Positions 2,733 to 11,992 of a stretch of 64,000 bases of DNA are shown here, one piece after another (the first letter of the stretch is position 1; the number at the start of each line of letters is the position of its first letter). Under the pieces are notes generated by a model. The model had not been told where the DNA came from. It searched no databases and saw only the letters and a program-made list of their open reading frames with translations. The position numbers were made by a program, and so were the translations under genes. This stretch comes from Halothermothrix sp. (GTDB taxonomy: Bacteria > Bacillota > Halanaerobiia > DY22613), in NCBI GenBank assembly GCA_016841825.1, contig JAENYK010000001.1:434001-498000 (forward strand), given 5' to 3'.

Positions 2733-3960
2733 TCAACCTGGAAACAACCTTACAATGCTCAGTTTCTTATTTCTCTGGTTCGGTGCAGCCATTTCCATTG
2801 CCGAGATTATGACAGGCGGTCTGCTGGCACCTCTCGGATTTACTAATGGATTATTGGTAATCATTATCGGTCATTTGATCGGTACAACTATTTTAATTCT
2901 GGGTGGAATTATTGGTTATAATGAAAAATTACCGGCCATTACTTCAACCAGAATGGCTTTTGGACAATGGGGAACATTTCTCTTTTCCCTACTCAATGTT
3001 TTACAGTTAATCGGCTGGACAGCCGTAATGATTATCTCTGGAGCCAGATCTGTTAATACAATTAGCAAAATTCTCTGGTCATTTGATAACCTATATCTAT
3101 GGAGTCTGGTCATTGGAGGCTTGATCTGTTTCTGGATCTATTTGGGGAATGCGGGTTTTAAAAAGATTAATATTATTGCTGTGTCTCTCCTGTTTGGGTT
3201 AACAATTCTACTAAGTCTGGTTATCTTTAAGAATAATCAATTGTTTACCAGAGAGATTACCGGTAATCTTCCCTTTGGTCTGGGAATTGAATTGAATGTG
3301 ATCATGCCTCTTTCCTGGCTGCCGTTAATTGCTGATTATACCCGCTTCGCCAGAAGCAAGTCAGGTGGTATCTGGGGAAGTTGGATTGGATATTTTAGCG
3401 GTAGTTGTTGGATGTATATCATCGGTCTTGGTGCAGCTATTGTTTCAGCTAATGCAGACCCTACCGGAATGATGTTGGCTGCCAATCTAGGTCTAACTGC
3501 CCTGGGAATACTCCTCCTCTCGACAGTGACTACCACTTTTCTGGATGCTTATTCAGCAGGAGTTACTTTTTTGAATATTACTCCCAGACTAAGTGAACGT
3601 AAAATGGCGATTATTATGGCTGTCATTGGAACTATAATCGCAATTATAGTTCCCATTGAACAGTATGAGAATTTTCTCTATGCTATTGGCTCGGTTTTCG
3701 CTCCCCTTTTTGCAGTGGTGATTGCCGATTACTTTATTTTGAAAAATCGTTCCATCGATCCAGATCTTCAGGTGAACTGGGGAGCTGTCGTAGTCTGGGT
3801 AGTTGGGATAGTTCTATATTACATCTTTATCAGATTTAATTTTATTCTGGGGGCTACTGTTCCAGTAATGATTCTTACTGGACTGATCTATACATTATTC
3901 TGGAGGTGGATTAAAAATTGGACATCTATCAAAAAATCGGAAATTTATATACAGAAGTAA
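2725..3960 (+). CDS. cytX: CytX, NCS1-family hydroxymethylpyrimidine transporter
   Basis: A 411-residue membrane protein with about 11-12 hydrophobic segments, of the nucleobase:cation symporter-1 family. The position between thiD and thiM under a TPP riboswitch identifies it as CytX, the predicted importer of hydroxymethylpyrimidine, rather than a cytosine or purine permease. Segments such as PLSWLPLIADYTRFAR and GSVFAPLFAVVIADYFIL match NCS1 proteins. The 3' end overlaps thiM by 43 bp. Confidence 0.9.
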   Translation: MNSQPGNNLTMLSFLFLWFGAAISIAEIMTGGLLAPLGFTNGLLVIIIGHLIGTTILILGGIIGYNEKLPAITSTRMAFGQWGTFLFSLLNVLQLIGWTAVMIISGARSVNTISKILWSFDNLYLWSLVIGGLICFWIYLGNAGFKKINIIAVSLLFGLTILLSLVIFKNNQLFTREITGNLPFGLGIELNVIMPLSWLPLIADYTRFARSKSGGIWGSWIGYFSGSCWMYIIGLGAAIVSANADPTGMMLAANLGLTALGILLLSTVTTTFLDAYSAGVTFLNITPRLSERKMAIIMAVIGTIIAIIVPIEQYENFLYAIGSVFAPLFAVVIADYFILKNRSIDPDLQVNWGAVVVWVVGIVLYYIFIRFNFILGATVPVMILTGLIYTLFWRWIKNWTSIKKSEIYIQK

Positions 3961-4730
3961 GAGAACATAACCCTCTGATCCATCATATCACCAACTATGT
4001 TACCGCAAATGAATGTGCCAATATTGTACTCGCTCTCGGAGGTTCACCTGTGATGGCAGATGATATTCACGAAGTTGCAGAGATGGTCTCCATCAGCTCT
4101 GCCCTGGTTCTTAATCTGGGTACTCTCAATTATGCTAACCTGGAGACGATGTTATTGGCAGGAGCAAAGGCAAACCACTTAAATATTCCGGTTATCCTCG
4201 ACCCTGTAGGTGTTGGTTCCACCAGTTTTCGAAATAAAGCTGCTCAGACTTTAGTAAAAAACATACAATTCGCAATAATTAGAGGTAATACATCTGAGAT
4301 TATGGCAGTGGCAGGAATAGAAGTACACACCCGGGGAGTAGATTCAACCCGAGAATTTGCTGAAGGTAAACGGGTGGCAATTAACCTGGCAAAAAGGCTC
4401 AAATCTGTTGTTGCAGTCACTGGTGCTAAAGATCTGATCACTGATGGCGAACATAGCCTGATCTGTGAAAATGGTCATCCTTTGCTCTCCAGGGTCACCG
4501 GAACAGGCTGTATGGTTTCTTCACTAGTTGGCGTATATGCCGGTATCAGTACAGATAAGCTCCTCGCGGCGACTGCCGGAATTGTCTCGATGGGTATCGC
4601 CGGAGAGAAAGCTTTTCAGCAGCTGCAGAGTACAGATCATCTGGGAACTTTCAGGATCAAGCTCTTTGATCAGATCGGTTCTTTGTCAACGGAAGATTTT
4701 ATAAAATGGGGGAGATTGAATGAACTATAA
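3918..4730 (+). CDS. thiM: Hydroxyethylthiazole kinase
   Basis: A 270-residue ribokinase-fold enzyme that phosphorylates 4-methyl-5-(2-hydroxyethyl)thiazole, the ring salvaged with help from ThiW. Key features are HHITNYVTANECAN near residues 22-35, ILDPVGVGSTSFR near 93, and the catalytic VTGTGCMVSSLVG near 193. The start is TTG at 3918 behind GGAGGTGG at 3903-3910. The upstream overlap with cytX suggests translational coupling. Confidence 0.95.
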   Translation: MDIYQKIGNLYTEVREHNPLIHHITNYVTANECANIVLALGGSPVMADDIHEVAEMVSISSALVLNLGTLNYANLETMLLAGAKANHLNIPVILDPVGVGSTSFRNKAAQTLVKNIQFAIIRGNTSEIMAVAGIEVHTRGVDSTREFAEGKRVAINLAKRLKSVVAVTGAKDLITDGEHSLICENGHPLLSRVTGTGCMVSSLVGVYAGISTDKLLAATAGIVSMGIAGEKAFQQLQSTDHLGTFRIKLFDQIGSLSTEDFIKWGRLNEL

Positions 4731-5346
4731 ACAGGATTACACTCTATATCTGGTCACTGATAGAAATATTCTGAAGAACAGAGACCTACTAACCTGTATA
4801 GAAAAAGCTATTCATGGTGGAGTCACCCTCGTACAATTAAGGGAAAAAAATATTTCCTCTCTTGAGTTTTTCGATCTAGCACAGCAGGTTAAAGAGCTTA
4901 CTGATCGATGTCAGATCCCATTGATTATCAACGACAGAGTGGATATTGCGCTAGCTGTCGATGCTGCGGGTGTTCACTTAGGTCAGGAAGATTTACCGAC
5001 AACGACCGCCCGAAAACTACTGGGATCTGAAAAACTATTGGGTATCTCCGCAGCTACATTAGAAGAAGCTCTATCTGCGGAAAGATCAGGGGCTGATTAT
5101 ATTGGTGTTGGGGCACTCTTCCCTACTACTACCAAATCTAACACCAGAAAAGTAACTCCTGATGAGCTGAGAAATATTAAGCAAAGAGTGAACATTCCAG
5201 TGGTCGCTATCGGTGGGATCAATCAAACTAATCTTCAGCAGATTGCTCATACTGGAATTGACGGCATTGCTGTCGTCTCAGCAATTTTAGGCAAAAGTGA
5301 TATTGAGAACTCAGCCAGGAAGTTATTGGAACTGTTACAGCAATAA
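4720..5346 (+). CDS. thiE: Thiamin-phosphate synthase
   Basis: A 208-residue TIM-barrel enzyme that joins HMP pyrophosphate and thiazole phosphate to give thiamin phosphate, the product of the upstream kinases. Diagnostic segments are LVQLREKN (near 37), PLIINDRVDIALAVDAAGVHLGQEDLP, and IGVGALFPTTTKS. The ATG follows GGGGGAG and overlaps thiM by 11 bp. It is the last gene of the operon, followed directly by a terminator. No thiazole or pyrimidine de novo genes accompany it, so the operon serves salvage. Confidence 0.96.
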   Translation: MNYKQDYTLYLVTDRNILKNRDLLTCIEKAIHGGVTLVQLREKNISSLEFFDLAQQVKELTDRCQIPLIINDRVDIALAVDAAGVHLGQEDLPTTTARKLLGSEKLLGISAATLEEALSAERSGADYIGVGALFPTTTKSNTRKVTPDELRNIKQRVNIPVVAIGGINQTNLQQIAHTGIDGIAVVSAILGKSDIENSARKLLELLQQ

Positions 5347-8403: not shown

Positions 8404-8434
8404 TTGACATTAACCTTACGTAAAGGTATATAGT
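8404..8434 (+). promoter_or_regulatory. MerR-type promoter with 19-bp spacer and operator
   Basis: TTGACA (8404-8409) and TATAGT (8429-8434) are 19 bp apart, the over-long spacing typical of MerR-activated promoters. The spacer holds ACCTT-ACGTA-AAGGT (8413-8427), an inverted repeat of the type bound by MerR dimers. The site lies 22 bp ahead of the merR-family gene, so autoregulation is expected. Confidence 0.85.
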
Positions 8435-8456
8435 AAAACTATCAGGAGGTGAGAAC

Positions 8457-9227
8457 ATGGAATATACAGTGCAGAAGTTAGCTCAAATGGCAGGTGTCAG
8501 TTCTCGAACGCTGCGCTACTATGATGAAATTGAACTCCTTAAGCCGGCAAGGATCAATTCATCAGGTTATCGCATTTACGGACAAAAAGAGGTTGATCGA
8601 CTACAACAGATACTTTTTTATAGAGAATTAGGCGTGAGCCTGGATAAGATTAAAACCATTATAACAACGCCTACCTTTGATGAACTAAAAGCATTGCGAG
8701 AACACCGTGAGAAACTTCTTGAGAAAAAAGAGCAATTAGATTTATTGATTGCAAATGTCGATAAAACAATTGCCTCTAAAGAAAGGAGTATACCTATGAA
8801 TGATAAAGAGAAATTCGAAGGTTTCAAACAAAAAATGATTGAGGATAATGAAAAAAAATATGGCAAGGAAATTCGTGAAAAATATGGCGATGAGATTGTT
8901 GCCAAGTCTAATAACAAACTAAAAAATATAACTCAAGAAGAATATGATCAAGTCACTAACCTTGCAGATGAGGTTATGCAAACACTTCATGCAGCAATGC
9001 AAACCAATGATCCTTCAGGTGAAATAGCTCAAAAAGCAGCAGATCTACATCGTCAATGGTTAAGTTTTTATTGGGATCGCTACAGCAAAGAAGCCCATGC
9101 AGGTCTTGCTCAAATGTATGTAGACGACGAAAGATTTAAAGCATACTATGATAAACAACAACCAGGAACAGCAGAGTTTCTCAGAGATGCAATTCTTATT
9201 TATACGGGAATGCACAACGAGAACTAG
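8457..9227 (+). CDS. MerR-family regulator with TipAS ligand-binding domain
   Basis: A 256-residue activator. The MerR winged helix is at the N-terminus (YTVQKLAQMAGVSSRTLRYYDEIELLKP, then SGYRIYG), followed by a coiled coil (about 70-115). The C-terminal TipAS/antibiotic-recognition domain (about 120-256) contains the WLSFYW and FLRDAILIYTG segments typical of TipAL and Mta proteins. Relatives bind hydrophobic or thiopeptide drugs and activate their own promoter and efflux genes. An internal ATG at 8796 could give a free TipAS-like product, as in tipA, but I cannot show it is used. Terminated just downstream. Confidence 0.92.
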   Translation: MEYTVQKLAQMAGVSSRTLRYYDEIELLKPARINSSGYRIYGQKEVDRLQQILFYRELGVSLDKIKTIITTPTFDELKALREHREKLLEKKEQLDLLIANVDKTIASKERSIPMNDKEKFEGFKQKMIEDNEKKYGKEIREKYGDEIVAKSNNKLKNITQEEYDQVTNLADEVMQTLHAAMQTNDPSGEIAQKAADLHRQWLSFYWDRYSKEAHAGLAQMYVDDERFKAYYDKQQPGTAEFLRDAILIYTGMHNEN

Positions 9228-9434: not shown

Positions 9435-9463
9435 TTGACATATAACCAAAGTTATGTTATTAT
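9435..9463 (+). promoter_or_regulatory. Strong promoter of the peptide/radical SAM cassette
   Basis: TTGACA (9435-9440), a 17-bp spacer and TATTAT (9458-9463) lie about 60 bp before the peptide gene. The spacer contains ATAAC-CAAA-GTTAT (9442-9455), a small inverted repeat that may be an operator. The preceding stretch from 9273 shows nothing else. Confidence 0.75.
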
Positions 9464-9525
9464 CGTAATATACAACATTAAGTCTTAATGTGGTACTAAT
9501 TACTAATTAAAGGAGGTGAAAAGCA

Positions 9526-9618
9526 ATGTTAGAACCTTTAAACATAATTTGGACAGACGGTGAAGTTGAAGAAGAAAATCCATGCCCATGTTGCGGTAGA
9601 TTATTCTACGGTATTTAA
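9526..9618 (+). CDS. Candidate RiPP precursor peptide, 30 residues with C-terminal CxCC
   Basis: A 30-codon gene with a very strong ribosome site (AGGAGGTGA) eight bases before its ATG. The product has an acidic leader-like N-terminal half (residues 9-19 WTDGEVEEENP) and ends CPCCGRLFYGI with cysteines at 20, 22 and 23. It has its own promoter and lies 57 bp ahead of a radical SAM/SPASM enzyme in the same direction. The short acidic leader, Cys-rich tail and maturase neighbour are the usual signs of a radical-SAM-modified peptide. I do not recognise a named precursor family. A small zinc-binding peptide is the alternative. Confidence 0.7.
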   Translation: MLEPLNIIWTDGEVEEENPCPCCGRLFYGI

Positions 9619-9626
9619 TCTGCGCT

Positions 9627-9655
9627 GAAGAGAGCCTATTTTGTAGGCTCTCTTC
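9627..9655 (+). terminator. Intercistronic hairpin between peptide and radical SAM genes
   Basis: GAAGAGAGCCTA (9627-9638) pairs perfectly with TAGGCTCTCTTC (9644-9655) around a five-base loop. There is no long T-run after it, so it is better read as a partial terminator or RNA-processing/stability element that keeps the peptide in excess over the enzyme. Confidence 0.7.
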
Positions 9656-9675
9656 CACTTAAGGAGGGACTGAGA

Positions 9676-11028
9676 TTGAAATTAATTAATCGAATGCGAG
9701 TTATTCCCGTTGAAGATGGTAAATATTTTATGCTAAATGGTCTAAATGGAGCCATTGATCTGCTTGATAATACAGGGTATCGAATCTATCAAAAATGGAA
9801 AGATCAGGCTGCAATAACTCCTGTTGGTCAAGAACAGACACTGTTTGAAGGACTACAGCAGCGTGGGTACCTGGTCGAAGATCAGAACGCAGAGCTGGAT
9901 CTTGAAAAAGAACTTTTTCAGCGATTAGAGCAAAAACACCAGCGACACCAAAAGATAATCGAACCATTAATAATTCTAACTTATGACTGTAACTTCCGCT
10001 GTCCTTACTGTTATGAGCAGACCTTGATGGATAAGGGTAAGGACTGGATGAATAAACAAATTACACCTGAGATGGTGCATTCTCTGATCAAACATTTTGA
10101 TAACTATAAGGTTGAGAGAATTACTCTGTTCGGCGGCGAACCCCTCTTACCAAGGAACAAAGAGACAGTAATTGAGTTTATTAAATACATCAAAGCTAAA
10201 AATCTTAAGTTGAATATCATTACCAACGGTTATTATTTAGAACATTACATTCCTCTACTGGTTGATGTAGATGTTCAAAAAATTCAAATTACTCTAGATG
10301 GTAATGAAGAACGCCATAACCAAACCCGCTACACTGCCGGTAAACAAGGTACATTCCACAAAATCTTAGAGAATGTAAAGCTGGCCCGGAAAGATAATCT
10401 CCCAATCTTCATTCGCTGTAATGTAGATATTGATGATCAAAATCAGGTTAATGATCTTTTGCAGACTTTTGATGAATATGGTTTACGCGACGACCCCGGA
10501 ATAGAATTATTTGTTGCTGCTTTACGGGAAGGGGAGCATCTTGAAGGCGATAACTGCAACATAATTCGAAAATATATCCAACAGATTGACAAAGCCATCG
10601 ATTACCCTAATTCGACAAAAGAGATGTTTGTCAAATTAAGCCATATTGCTACCAATTTTCTGGATAACACCAACTGGCATCCAAAGTACACATACTGCTT
10701 TGCCCATTCCAGTCTACAGGTATTTGACCCCTGGGGTTATATTTATCCGTGTTCTGTTCTCGTAGGACGCGAAAAAGACATCATCGGTACCTATGATGAA
10801 AACGGAGTTATTTTTAATGACCTATATACTAAATGGCACAATCGAACCGTGGCCAATATGGAAAAATGCCGGGATTGCGAAATGGCTCTCTTCTGTGGAG
10901 GAGGCTGCGCTGGTGAATCCAGTTATCAAAATAGAGACCTTTATGAACCTGACTGCTCTGATATGGAAGCTTATCTGAGCGAGTTATTGCCCTACTTGTA
11001 CGCTAGATATGTTAAAAAACAGGCATAA
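9676..11028 (+). CDS. Radical SAM/SPASM enzyme, candidate peptide maturase
   Basis: A 450-residue iron-sulfur enzyme. Residues 1-90 resemble the PqqD-like or RRE-like N-terminal regions of peptide maturases. The radical SAM cluster motif is C105-x3-C109-x2-C112 (CNFRCPYC), with the SAM-contacting GGEP at 153-156. The C-terminal SPASM domain has C341, then GYIYPC ending at C359, and C398-x2-C401-x5-C407-x3-C411-x15-C427, enough ligands for two auxiliary clusters. Start is TTG at 9676 after AAGGAGGG. Known SPASM maturases make thioether or carbon crosslinks in small peptides; the 30-residue peptide upstream is the obvious substrate. No peptidase or exporter is adjacent. Confidence 0.9.
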   Translation: MKLINRMRVIPVEDGKYFMLNGLNGAIDLLDNTGYRIYQKWKDQAAITPVGQEQTLFEGLQQRGYLVEDQNAELDLEKELFQRLEQKHQRHQKIIEPLIILTYDCNFRCPYCYEQTLMDKGKDWMNKQITPEMVHSLIKHFDNYKVERITLFGGEPLLPRNKETVIEFIKYIKAKNLKLNIITNGYYLEHYIPLLVDVDVQKIQITLDGNEERHNQTRYTAGKQGTFHKILENVKLARKDNLPIFIRCNVDIDDQNQVNDLLQTFDEYGLRDDPGIELFVAALREGEHLEGDNCNIIRKYIQQIDKAIDYPNSTKEMFVKLSHIATNFLDNTNWHPKYTYCFAHSSLQVFDPWGYIYPCSVLVGREKDIIGTYDENGVIFNDLYTKWHNRTVANMEKCRDCEMALFCGGGCAGESSYQNRDLYEPDCSDMEAYLSELLPYLYARYVKKQA

Positions 11029-11030
11029 TA

Positions 11031-11091
11031 AATAGGCTGATATTCAACCTTCAGAACTATAAAGTTGAATATCAGCCTATTGTTGTTTTTT
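11031..11091 (+). terminator. Strong terminator of the radical SAM cassette
   Basis: An 18-bp perfect stem (11031-11048 with 11064-11081, beginning AATAGGCTGAT) is followed by GTTGTTTTTT. The interval to 11279 contains no gene that I can support. Confidence 0.92.
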
Positions 11092-11279: not shown

Positions 11280-11957
11280 TCAATCTTTTGGATTTTTAAT
11301 AGCATCTAAAGCATTTTGATAAAATTTCCTTACAAATTTACCGAATATAGGAATCTGTTGATTCTTTAAATAAAGATAACCAATAATAGAAGAAAAAACT
11401 GCACCTATAGTATCGACTATCAGATCCCACATAGTATCTACCAATCCAGATTTCTGCATATTAAGTGCAAATATTGAGTCCATACTAAACTCATAAACTT
11501 CCCACAAAACACCCATTGTTACTGCGAAAGTAGCAGAAAAAAGTACCACAAAGAACGGACTTAGCATCACATTGACTTTTACATCTTTATTTAGCAAATA
11601 TATCAATAAAAATCCAATAAATCCAAGAATGACTCCCGAGAGAGTATGCAGCATAAGATCCCACCACCAAAATATGGTATAAAAATCCCGAAGATTACCC
11701 AGGTATAAGGCTGCAAAAATAAAAAGAAAGATAACAGTCTGAAAACTCCGGGGCAGATAGATATGGTTTTTTTGTGAAATTAAATAAGGGAGAAATGTCA
11801 GAGCAAGAGTAGTAATTGCTGTGAACATATTCAACCAATTTCCTTCAGTTAGATTACCGCCTATAGCAAAAACCAATAATATTCTAAAAATATTAGTAAA
11901 AACTCTATCCAAATTTACCTTTTTATTCTTCTCTTTAGGAATACCTAGTTCGCCCAC
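11280..11957 (-). CDS. DUF2238-like integral membrane protein
   Basis: A 225-residue protein with about six membrane segments. The motif WWWDLMLHTLSGVILG and the later DTMWDLIVDTIGAVFSSIIGYLY match, from memory, the DUF2238 family of unknown function. The GTG at 11957 sits seven bases behind a GGGGGG ribosome site; a TTG at 11960 is a possible alternative. It is the last gene of the TetR/ABC-2 unit, 35 bp after the second permease. Confidence 0.7.
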   Translation of the reverse strand: MGELGIPKEKNKKVNLDRVFTNIFRILLVFAIGGNLTEGNWLNMFTAITTLALTFLPYLISQKNHIYLPRSFQTVIFLFIFAALYLGNLRDFYTIFWWWDLMLHTLSGVILGFIGFLLIYLLNKDVKVNVMLSPFFVVLFSATFAVTMGVLWEVYEFSMDSIFALNMQKSGLVDTMWDLIVDTIGAVFSSIIGYLYLKNQQIPIFGKFVRKFYQNALDAIKNPKD

Positions 11958-11992
11958 CAATATTCCCCCCTCTATTCATATTTACATTAGCT

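Follow-up and report, generated by a model that had tools for sequence, protein, structure and literature searches.

A candidate two-gene RiPP system in Halothermothrix sp.: a 30-residue cysteine peptide and a radical SAM/SPASM enzyme

What is the role of a 30-codon reading frame with a cysteine-rich end that lies directly before the gene of a radical SAM/SPASM enzyme? Both genes are located in the window, the whole stretch of 64,000 nucleotides of Halothermothrix sp. DNA that was analysed (contig JAENYK010000001.1, positions 434,001 to 498,000). The initial annotation regarded them as a peptide and its modifying enzyme, and this is still the best reading. Judged from the sequences, the pair is very probably a two-gene RiPP system, with the 30-residue peptide as precursor and the adjacent enzyme as maturase. 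The evidence is a paralogous pair in the same genome, a peptide at 20 of 20 related loci and a distinct clade of the enzymes.

The gene pair and its enzyme

The features of the pair and of its neighbours are listed in the table.

Features of the peptide/enzyme pair and its neighbourhood (positions in the window)
Feature	Position	Strand	Remarks
MerR-TipAS regulator, upstream neighbour	8457-9227		Pfam TipAS 5.3e-40
Sigma-70-type promoter, TTGACA-17-TATTAT	9435-9463	+	11/12 consensus positions
Dyad ATAAC-CAAA-GTTAT in promoter spacer	9442-9455	+	
Ribosome-binding site of peptide gene, AAGGAGGTGA	9510-9519	+	
Candidate precursor peptide ORF, ATG start, 30 aa	9526-9618	+	
Putative leader, residues 1 to ~17, MLEPLNIIWTDGEVEEE	within 9526-9618	+	border inferred
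Putative Cys core, residues ~18-30, NPCPCCGRLFYGI	within 9526-9618	+	border inferred
Intercistronic hairpin, 13 pairs, without U tract	9627-9655	+	-21 kcal/mol, z -3.3
Candidate radical SAM/SPASM maturase gene, TTG start, 450 aa	9676-11028	+	
N-terminal domain, residues 1-92, predicted bbb-aaa fold, RRE-like	9676-9951	+	AlphaFold2, pLDDT >90
CNFRCPYC, SAM-binding [4Fe-4S] motif, C105-x3-C109-x2-C112	9988-10011	+	invariant in 20 homologues
SPASM domain, C341, C359, C398-x2-C401-x5-C407-x3-C411, C427	10696-10956	+	invariant in 20 homologues
End hairpin and U-rich tail, likely terminator	11031-11091	+	folding
Downstream neighbour, convergent gene without name	11280-11960		Pfam: no match

The consensus promoter of its own, the strong ribosome site and the strong terminator initially described for the pair were all recovered. 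The ribosome site of the enzyme gene is AAGGAGGGA. The end hairpin proper (11031-11081), 3' of the enzyme gene, has 18 pairs at -26.7 kcal/mol (z -5.7) and is followed by the U-rich tract. A simple terminator scan does not list it on the + strand, as a loop of 15 nt is longer than the scan allows. The hairpin between the two genes, an addition to the features first described, was not scored as a terminator by the simple scan.

The TipAS domain of the upstream MerR gene is an antibiotic-recognition domain. This gene has a MerR-type promoter of its own (promoter and gene together 8404-9227), with a 19-bp spacer and the dyad ACCTT-ACGTA-AAGGT (8413-8427). That the regulator senses the product was considered and rejected, since this dyad does not occur in the promoter of the pair and control is thus without evidence. 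Elsewhere in the window a TPP riboswitch (RF00059, 80.8 bits, 1190-1302, + strand) was identified, with thiamine-type genes downstream of it (3918-5346).

The peptide, MLEPLNIIWTDGEVEEENPCPCCGRLFYGI, has its cysteines at positions 20, 22 and 23; the reading frame and its cysteine tail are present as first reported, and a tandem core repeat is absent. At control loci, short ORFs with a ribosome site were found at about 0.65 per kb. Since such ORFs are common by chance, the peptide ORF alone proves nothing, and it is the paralogous pair and the related loci that lift it above chance. It had been placed outside the precursor classes that could be named, and in agreement with this none of the NCBIfam precursor models fits it at E values up to 1. 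The Pfam model zf-C2HC_2 gives a weak match (E 0.021), under the cut-off. Only one close homologue of the peptide was found, the peptide of the paralogous pair, and an orthologue of the exact window pair was not found in genomes, plasmids, phages or IMG/VR.

The enzyme matches Pfam Radical_SAM (4.5e-20). The CxxxCxxC motif and the full SPASM pattern attributed to its 450 residues are borne out, as all ten cluster cysteines (three radical SAM, seven SPASM) are present and invariant across an alignment of 20 homologues. In the motif and the SPASM domain, and in the consistent pairing with a short precursor gene (the paralogous pair and all related loci examined), it agrees with RiPP radical SAM/SPASM maturases as a broad kind. 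The AlphaFold2 model, calculated with the 20-homologue alignment as input, has a pLDDT of 85.6 and a pTM of 0.85. Its N-terminal domain of three strands and three helices, modelled at residues 7-92, is like the layout of an RRE leader-binding domain, and binding of a leader is predicted only. The closest solved structure is CteB (3.5e-33 by sequence, 1.4e-17 by fold), and TigE is second both ways. The enzyme touches 88 NCBIfam families, and no cut-off is reached among the best 25 of the 88. The scores are 153.4 of the required 600 bits for CefB (NF038107), 149.6 of 525 bits for TIGR04463, 133 of 340 bits for PapB (NF047865) and 113.8 of 425 bits for the SCIFF maturase (TIGR03974).

The paralogous pair and related loci

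The same 5.08-Mb genome encodes a paralogous enzyme, which is 35% identical to the window enzyme over the whole length. Its peptide, MFEPVNKKPMIENGVESDGCYACCRVYVGITPY, is encoded by a 33-codon ORF located one base past the enzyme stop, behind AAAGGAGGTGA. The gene order is reversed, with the peptide downstream of the enzyme in the paralogous pair and upstream in the window pair, and the two are therefore no simple duplication in which the DNA between the genes was preserved. Both peptides share M-x-EP-x-N, an acidic middle, a cysteine cluster and a G-I end; their global alignment was equalled or bettered by 3 of 3000 shuffles. The promoters of both pairs have TTGACA, ATAA and AAAGTTAT in common. 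This promoter-plus-spacer pattern, written from the two sites that it then found, has no third match in the genome, and a promoter pattern common to both pairs is suggestive only. A second radical SAM enzyme and an ABC exporter are located 2.4 kb beyond the paralogue's peptide (locus L010, 12335-15383). This second enzyme was rejected as an orthologue of those of the relatives, the matches being partial and only ~23-28% identical.

Searching the genome contigs with the single enzyme gave no confirmed relative. Relatives were obtained once the window enzyme had been aligned with the paralogue and the distant relative L009; with this alignment as query, the search recovered 18 relatives at ~30-35% identity, nearly all from Bacillota (L012-L029). 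The plasmid search for enzyme relatives gave none at 1e-30, and the phage and IMG/VR searches gave distant SPASM enzymes only. The related loci (L009, L012-L029) include Tissierella, Alkaliphilus, Anaerosalibacter and Defluviitaleaceae. At each of the 20 related enzyme loci examined, a short peptide with cysteine is encoded behind a ribosome site. Homologues consistently lacking the peptide, named at the outset as an argument against the pairing, were not encountered; the paralogue and every related locus examined carry one.

Stand-alone pairs are found in the window, in Alkaliphilus, Tissierella and relatives (MKMKPIIEASWNLQ...GPMIGIG..FCCAC), and in some Defluviitaleaceae, where the tails read ..WCCEW, ..QCCLDDWAW and ..WCCAGDQYL. 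The six CCAC peptides of the Tissierella/Alkaliphilus type have a largely fixed leader and tail and a linker that varies by whole codons, and a hairpin lies between peptide and enzyme in 6 of 6 CCAC relatives, mostly with a T run. The larger clusters are of two kinds. In one (L012, L014, L016, L025; partly L028, L029) the additional genes encode an ABC exporter, an M55 peptidase and another radical SAM enzyme; in the other (L021, L022) there is an S41 protease. M50 peptidases are also among the cluster genes of the relatives. Several relatives have two to four peptide genes, and L016 has four (MKSLNELIWN..C..C). The absence of an adjacent protease or exporter, noted initially for the window pair, thus holds for the stand-alone pairs but not for the many relatives with M55, M50 or S41 proteins and ABC exporters. 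Likewise, the description of the pair as minimal and undescribed stands in that no named class fits, whereas "minimal" applies to this sub-lineage only.

Most of the RiPP-like clusters with two radical SAM enzymes (L012, L014, L016, L025, L028, L029) have an M55 protein of the D-aminopeptidase family and an ABC exporter; no account of M55 beside radical SAM RiPP enzymes was found in the literature searched. The Defluviitaleaceae loci L021, L022 and L033 have long Cys/Gly/Pro-rich precursors starting with MKPIIETGW or MTPIITTEW. In L021 and L022 the S41-type protease gene is situated directly before the maturase gene, with an overlap of a few bases.

Conservation of C20, C22 and C23, proposed as a check, did not hold up. 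C-x-C-C is not kept, and relatives and paralogue show CYACC, CCAC, WCCEW and CGGG..C. The CC pair is conserved in the stand-alone pairs, and the most constant part of their tail is a cysteine, usually CC. The leaders of most relatives read [PS]-[IL]-[IN]-x-x-x-W, for example MEPIIDLIWSVEE, MKSLNELIWNNE and MKPIIETGW. EPLN-IIW of the window peptide fits this motif with one residue fewer; the paralogue is without the Trp. The first count of the motif is descriptive only, the motif having been written from the same loci. A leader profile was then made from the leaders of the relatives, with the window genome left out, and 701 held-out short ORFs were scanned with it; this test is the fairer of the two and its support is weaker. 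The top rank went to the peptide of L033, a true relative outside the training set; the window peptide came sixth (E 3.6) and that of the paralogue 29th. The link of the window leader to those of the relatives is thus supportive and not significant alone, and the tree carries the argument. In the tree of 37 sequences the window enzyme groups with its paralogue (98/97), and both fall with 14 relatives into a single clade (100/96). The TIGR04463/CefB-like enzymes (100/100) and the SCIFF-type maturase group (94/81) lie outside it. In a larger tree with very long outgroup branches, the whole group is unresolved as one clade (51/96).

Proposed mechanism and rival readings

The pair-family falls under no named database family searched and, by analogy, would work like a ranthipeptide or sactipeptide system. 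No description of the peptide/enzyme combination was found in the literature searched, which left out most subscription papers. The RRE-like domain would bind the N-terminal half of the precursor at the leader stretch MLEPLNIIWTDGE, and the Cys core would thereby be presented to the active site. The model for this is CteB, in which the CteA leader lies in the RRE as a beta strand (PMC8326336). SAM would be cleaved at the [4Fe-4S] cluster of C105, C109 and C112, giving a 5'-deoxyadenosyl radical that would take H from a residue of the Cys-rich tail. One or more of C20, C22 and C23, probably held at the SPASM auxiliary cluster, would join that carbon. The product would be a thioether cross-link (-2 Da per bond), with bond type, radical position and number of bonds all presumptive. 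One promoter would drive both genes, and owing to the intercistronic hairpin the precursor would probably be made in excess of the enzyme. The genes for removing the leader and for any export would lie in other parts of the genome. As neither a protease nor an exporter is encoded locally, the product may either depend on such distant genes or remain inside the cell.

The thioether is given an even chance. Thioethers are the bonds that SPASM maturases make in Cys peptides (review PMC8326336), and the best solved relative, the thioether synthase CteB, favours this bond as the most likely one. The tail also has Phe, Leu, Tyr and Ile next to its cysteines. These would suit a real pair whose modification, at F/Y/L/I or Pro, is an epimerisation, a desaturation, a cyclopropane or a C-C or C-O cross-link, with the cysteines serving another purpose. 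TigE, second best solved relative by sequence and by fold, is presumably a radical SAM enzyme of the poly-cyclopropylglycine peptide system, and is an example of a SPASM enzyme of similar shape with a different chemistry. However, in stand-alone pairs nothing in the tail is as constant as cysteine, usually as CC, and the best match by sequence and fold makes thioethers; a modification of another kind is the less probable reading.

Ahead of the enzyme gene, a stable hairpin follows closely on three Cys codons, as would be expected if the ORF were a regulatory leader peptide in which ribosomes stalling at these codons couple enzyme expression to the supply of cysteine. The paralogue's peptide gene lies downstream of its enzyme and cannot attenuate it, which excludes attenuation in that pair and largely refutes it here. 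The window hairpin, moreover, has no U tract and did not score as a terminator, and relatives keep the N-terminal peptide sequence and several have more than one peptide gene; the reading is very improbable. No more credit is due to a free-standing metal-binding mini-protein, with CPCCG resembling a zinc knuckle and the enzyme acting on another substrate. The weak zf-C2HC_2 match speaks for it, but the paralogue's peptide (CYACCR) and the tails of relatives lack CPxCG and yet keep the pairing, and no other substrate is encoded near the enzyme. A SCIFF-type ranthipeptide system is suggested by CteB as best solved relative and by the SCIFF-type maturases as neighbouring group in the smaller tree. 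It is extremely improbable, as the peptide has three cysteines in 30 residues and not six, the TIGR03974 cut-off is missed and the enzyme lies outside the SCIFF-type clade; the original statement that this is no six-cysteine SCIFF peptide is upheld. The SCIFF precursor model, searched against the own genome, matched no control, and this search therefore carries no weight for or against.

Wider meaning and comparison with known systems

Radical SAM/SPASM maturases that act on Cys-rich precursors offer much new cross-linking chemistry, and to our knowledge many lineages of these maturases have no characterised member. The result is a bounded family with an enzyme alignment and a leader motif. 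Two small two-gene systems in one genome, with no other local genes needed, make the chemistry directly testable by co-expression. The loci might, somewhat speculatively, form an undescribed Bacillota RiPP family, with the [PS]-[IL]-[IN]-x-x-x-W leader and a SPASM clade of its own, whose stand-alone lineages turn a C-terminal Cys-Cys motif into a conserved, non-antibiotic product and whose sister lineages acquired proteases and exporters and evolved varied cores that give secreted natural products. If so, the product of the stand-alone lineages would be a metal-binding or redox cofactor, or a signal. An intracellular role is possible, since pairs that lack protease and exporter have retained the CC tail in different genera.

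Several more apparent short-peptide/radical-SAM loci occur in the same genome (contigs C30, C21, C43, C14). These encode three MLD[QK]LW[ND]L peptides, two of them ending in YCCPV (L067, 2536-2902 and 4201-4293), five tandem MK[LM]LVLR..C..C..C peptides with ABC genes (L069, 6264-6894), four Pro-rich peptides of the MLNFNDLNPTIA type (L072, 7057-7713) and two of the F[ED]MKVD type (L073, 4479-4720). At L158, a TIGR04463-like maturase under the NCBIfam cut-off has four peptides in tandem beside it; these have M.W[VL]V.P leaders, share the core DAGCPWLCY and are a further family of Cys-rich precursors.

Among known systems, CteA/CteB and other SCIFF systems (TIGR03973/TIGR03974) likewise combine a short precursor containing cysteines with an adjacent radical SAM/SPASM enzyme that has an RRE at its N-terminus. 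Their precursors differ in having six cysteines in ~45 residues, against three in 30 here, and another leader, and the window maturase is far under their cut-off and in a separate clade. TIGR04463 and CefB give the window enzyme its highest NCBIfam scores (150 and 153 bits) and also have the precursor beside the enzyme, but their cut-offs of 525 and 600 bits are missed. Enzymes with 200-520 bits for these two models group in a clade of their own (100/100); the peptides beside them contain more cysteines than here and start with leaders of the type MNW.., MQMLVEG.. or MTYLIEG... The PapB family (NF047865) matches over the radical SAM and SPASM domains with 133 bits; its cut-off of 340 is not reached, and no NCBIfam precursor model fits the window peptide. 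TigE (structure 8vpo, Paramaledivibacter) is the second best solved relative with a full-length match, but is only 17% identical in the fold alignment, and the window peptide is without a tandem core repeat. The unnamed Bacillota clusters have the same enzyme clade and a short Cys-containing peptide, mostly with a P/S-[IL]-[IN]-x-x-x-W leader; the CCAC pairs among them also have a hairpin before the enzyme. They differ in their core sequences, and many have a second radical SAM enzyme, M55, M50 or S41 proteins and ABC exporters.
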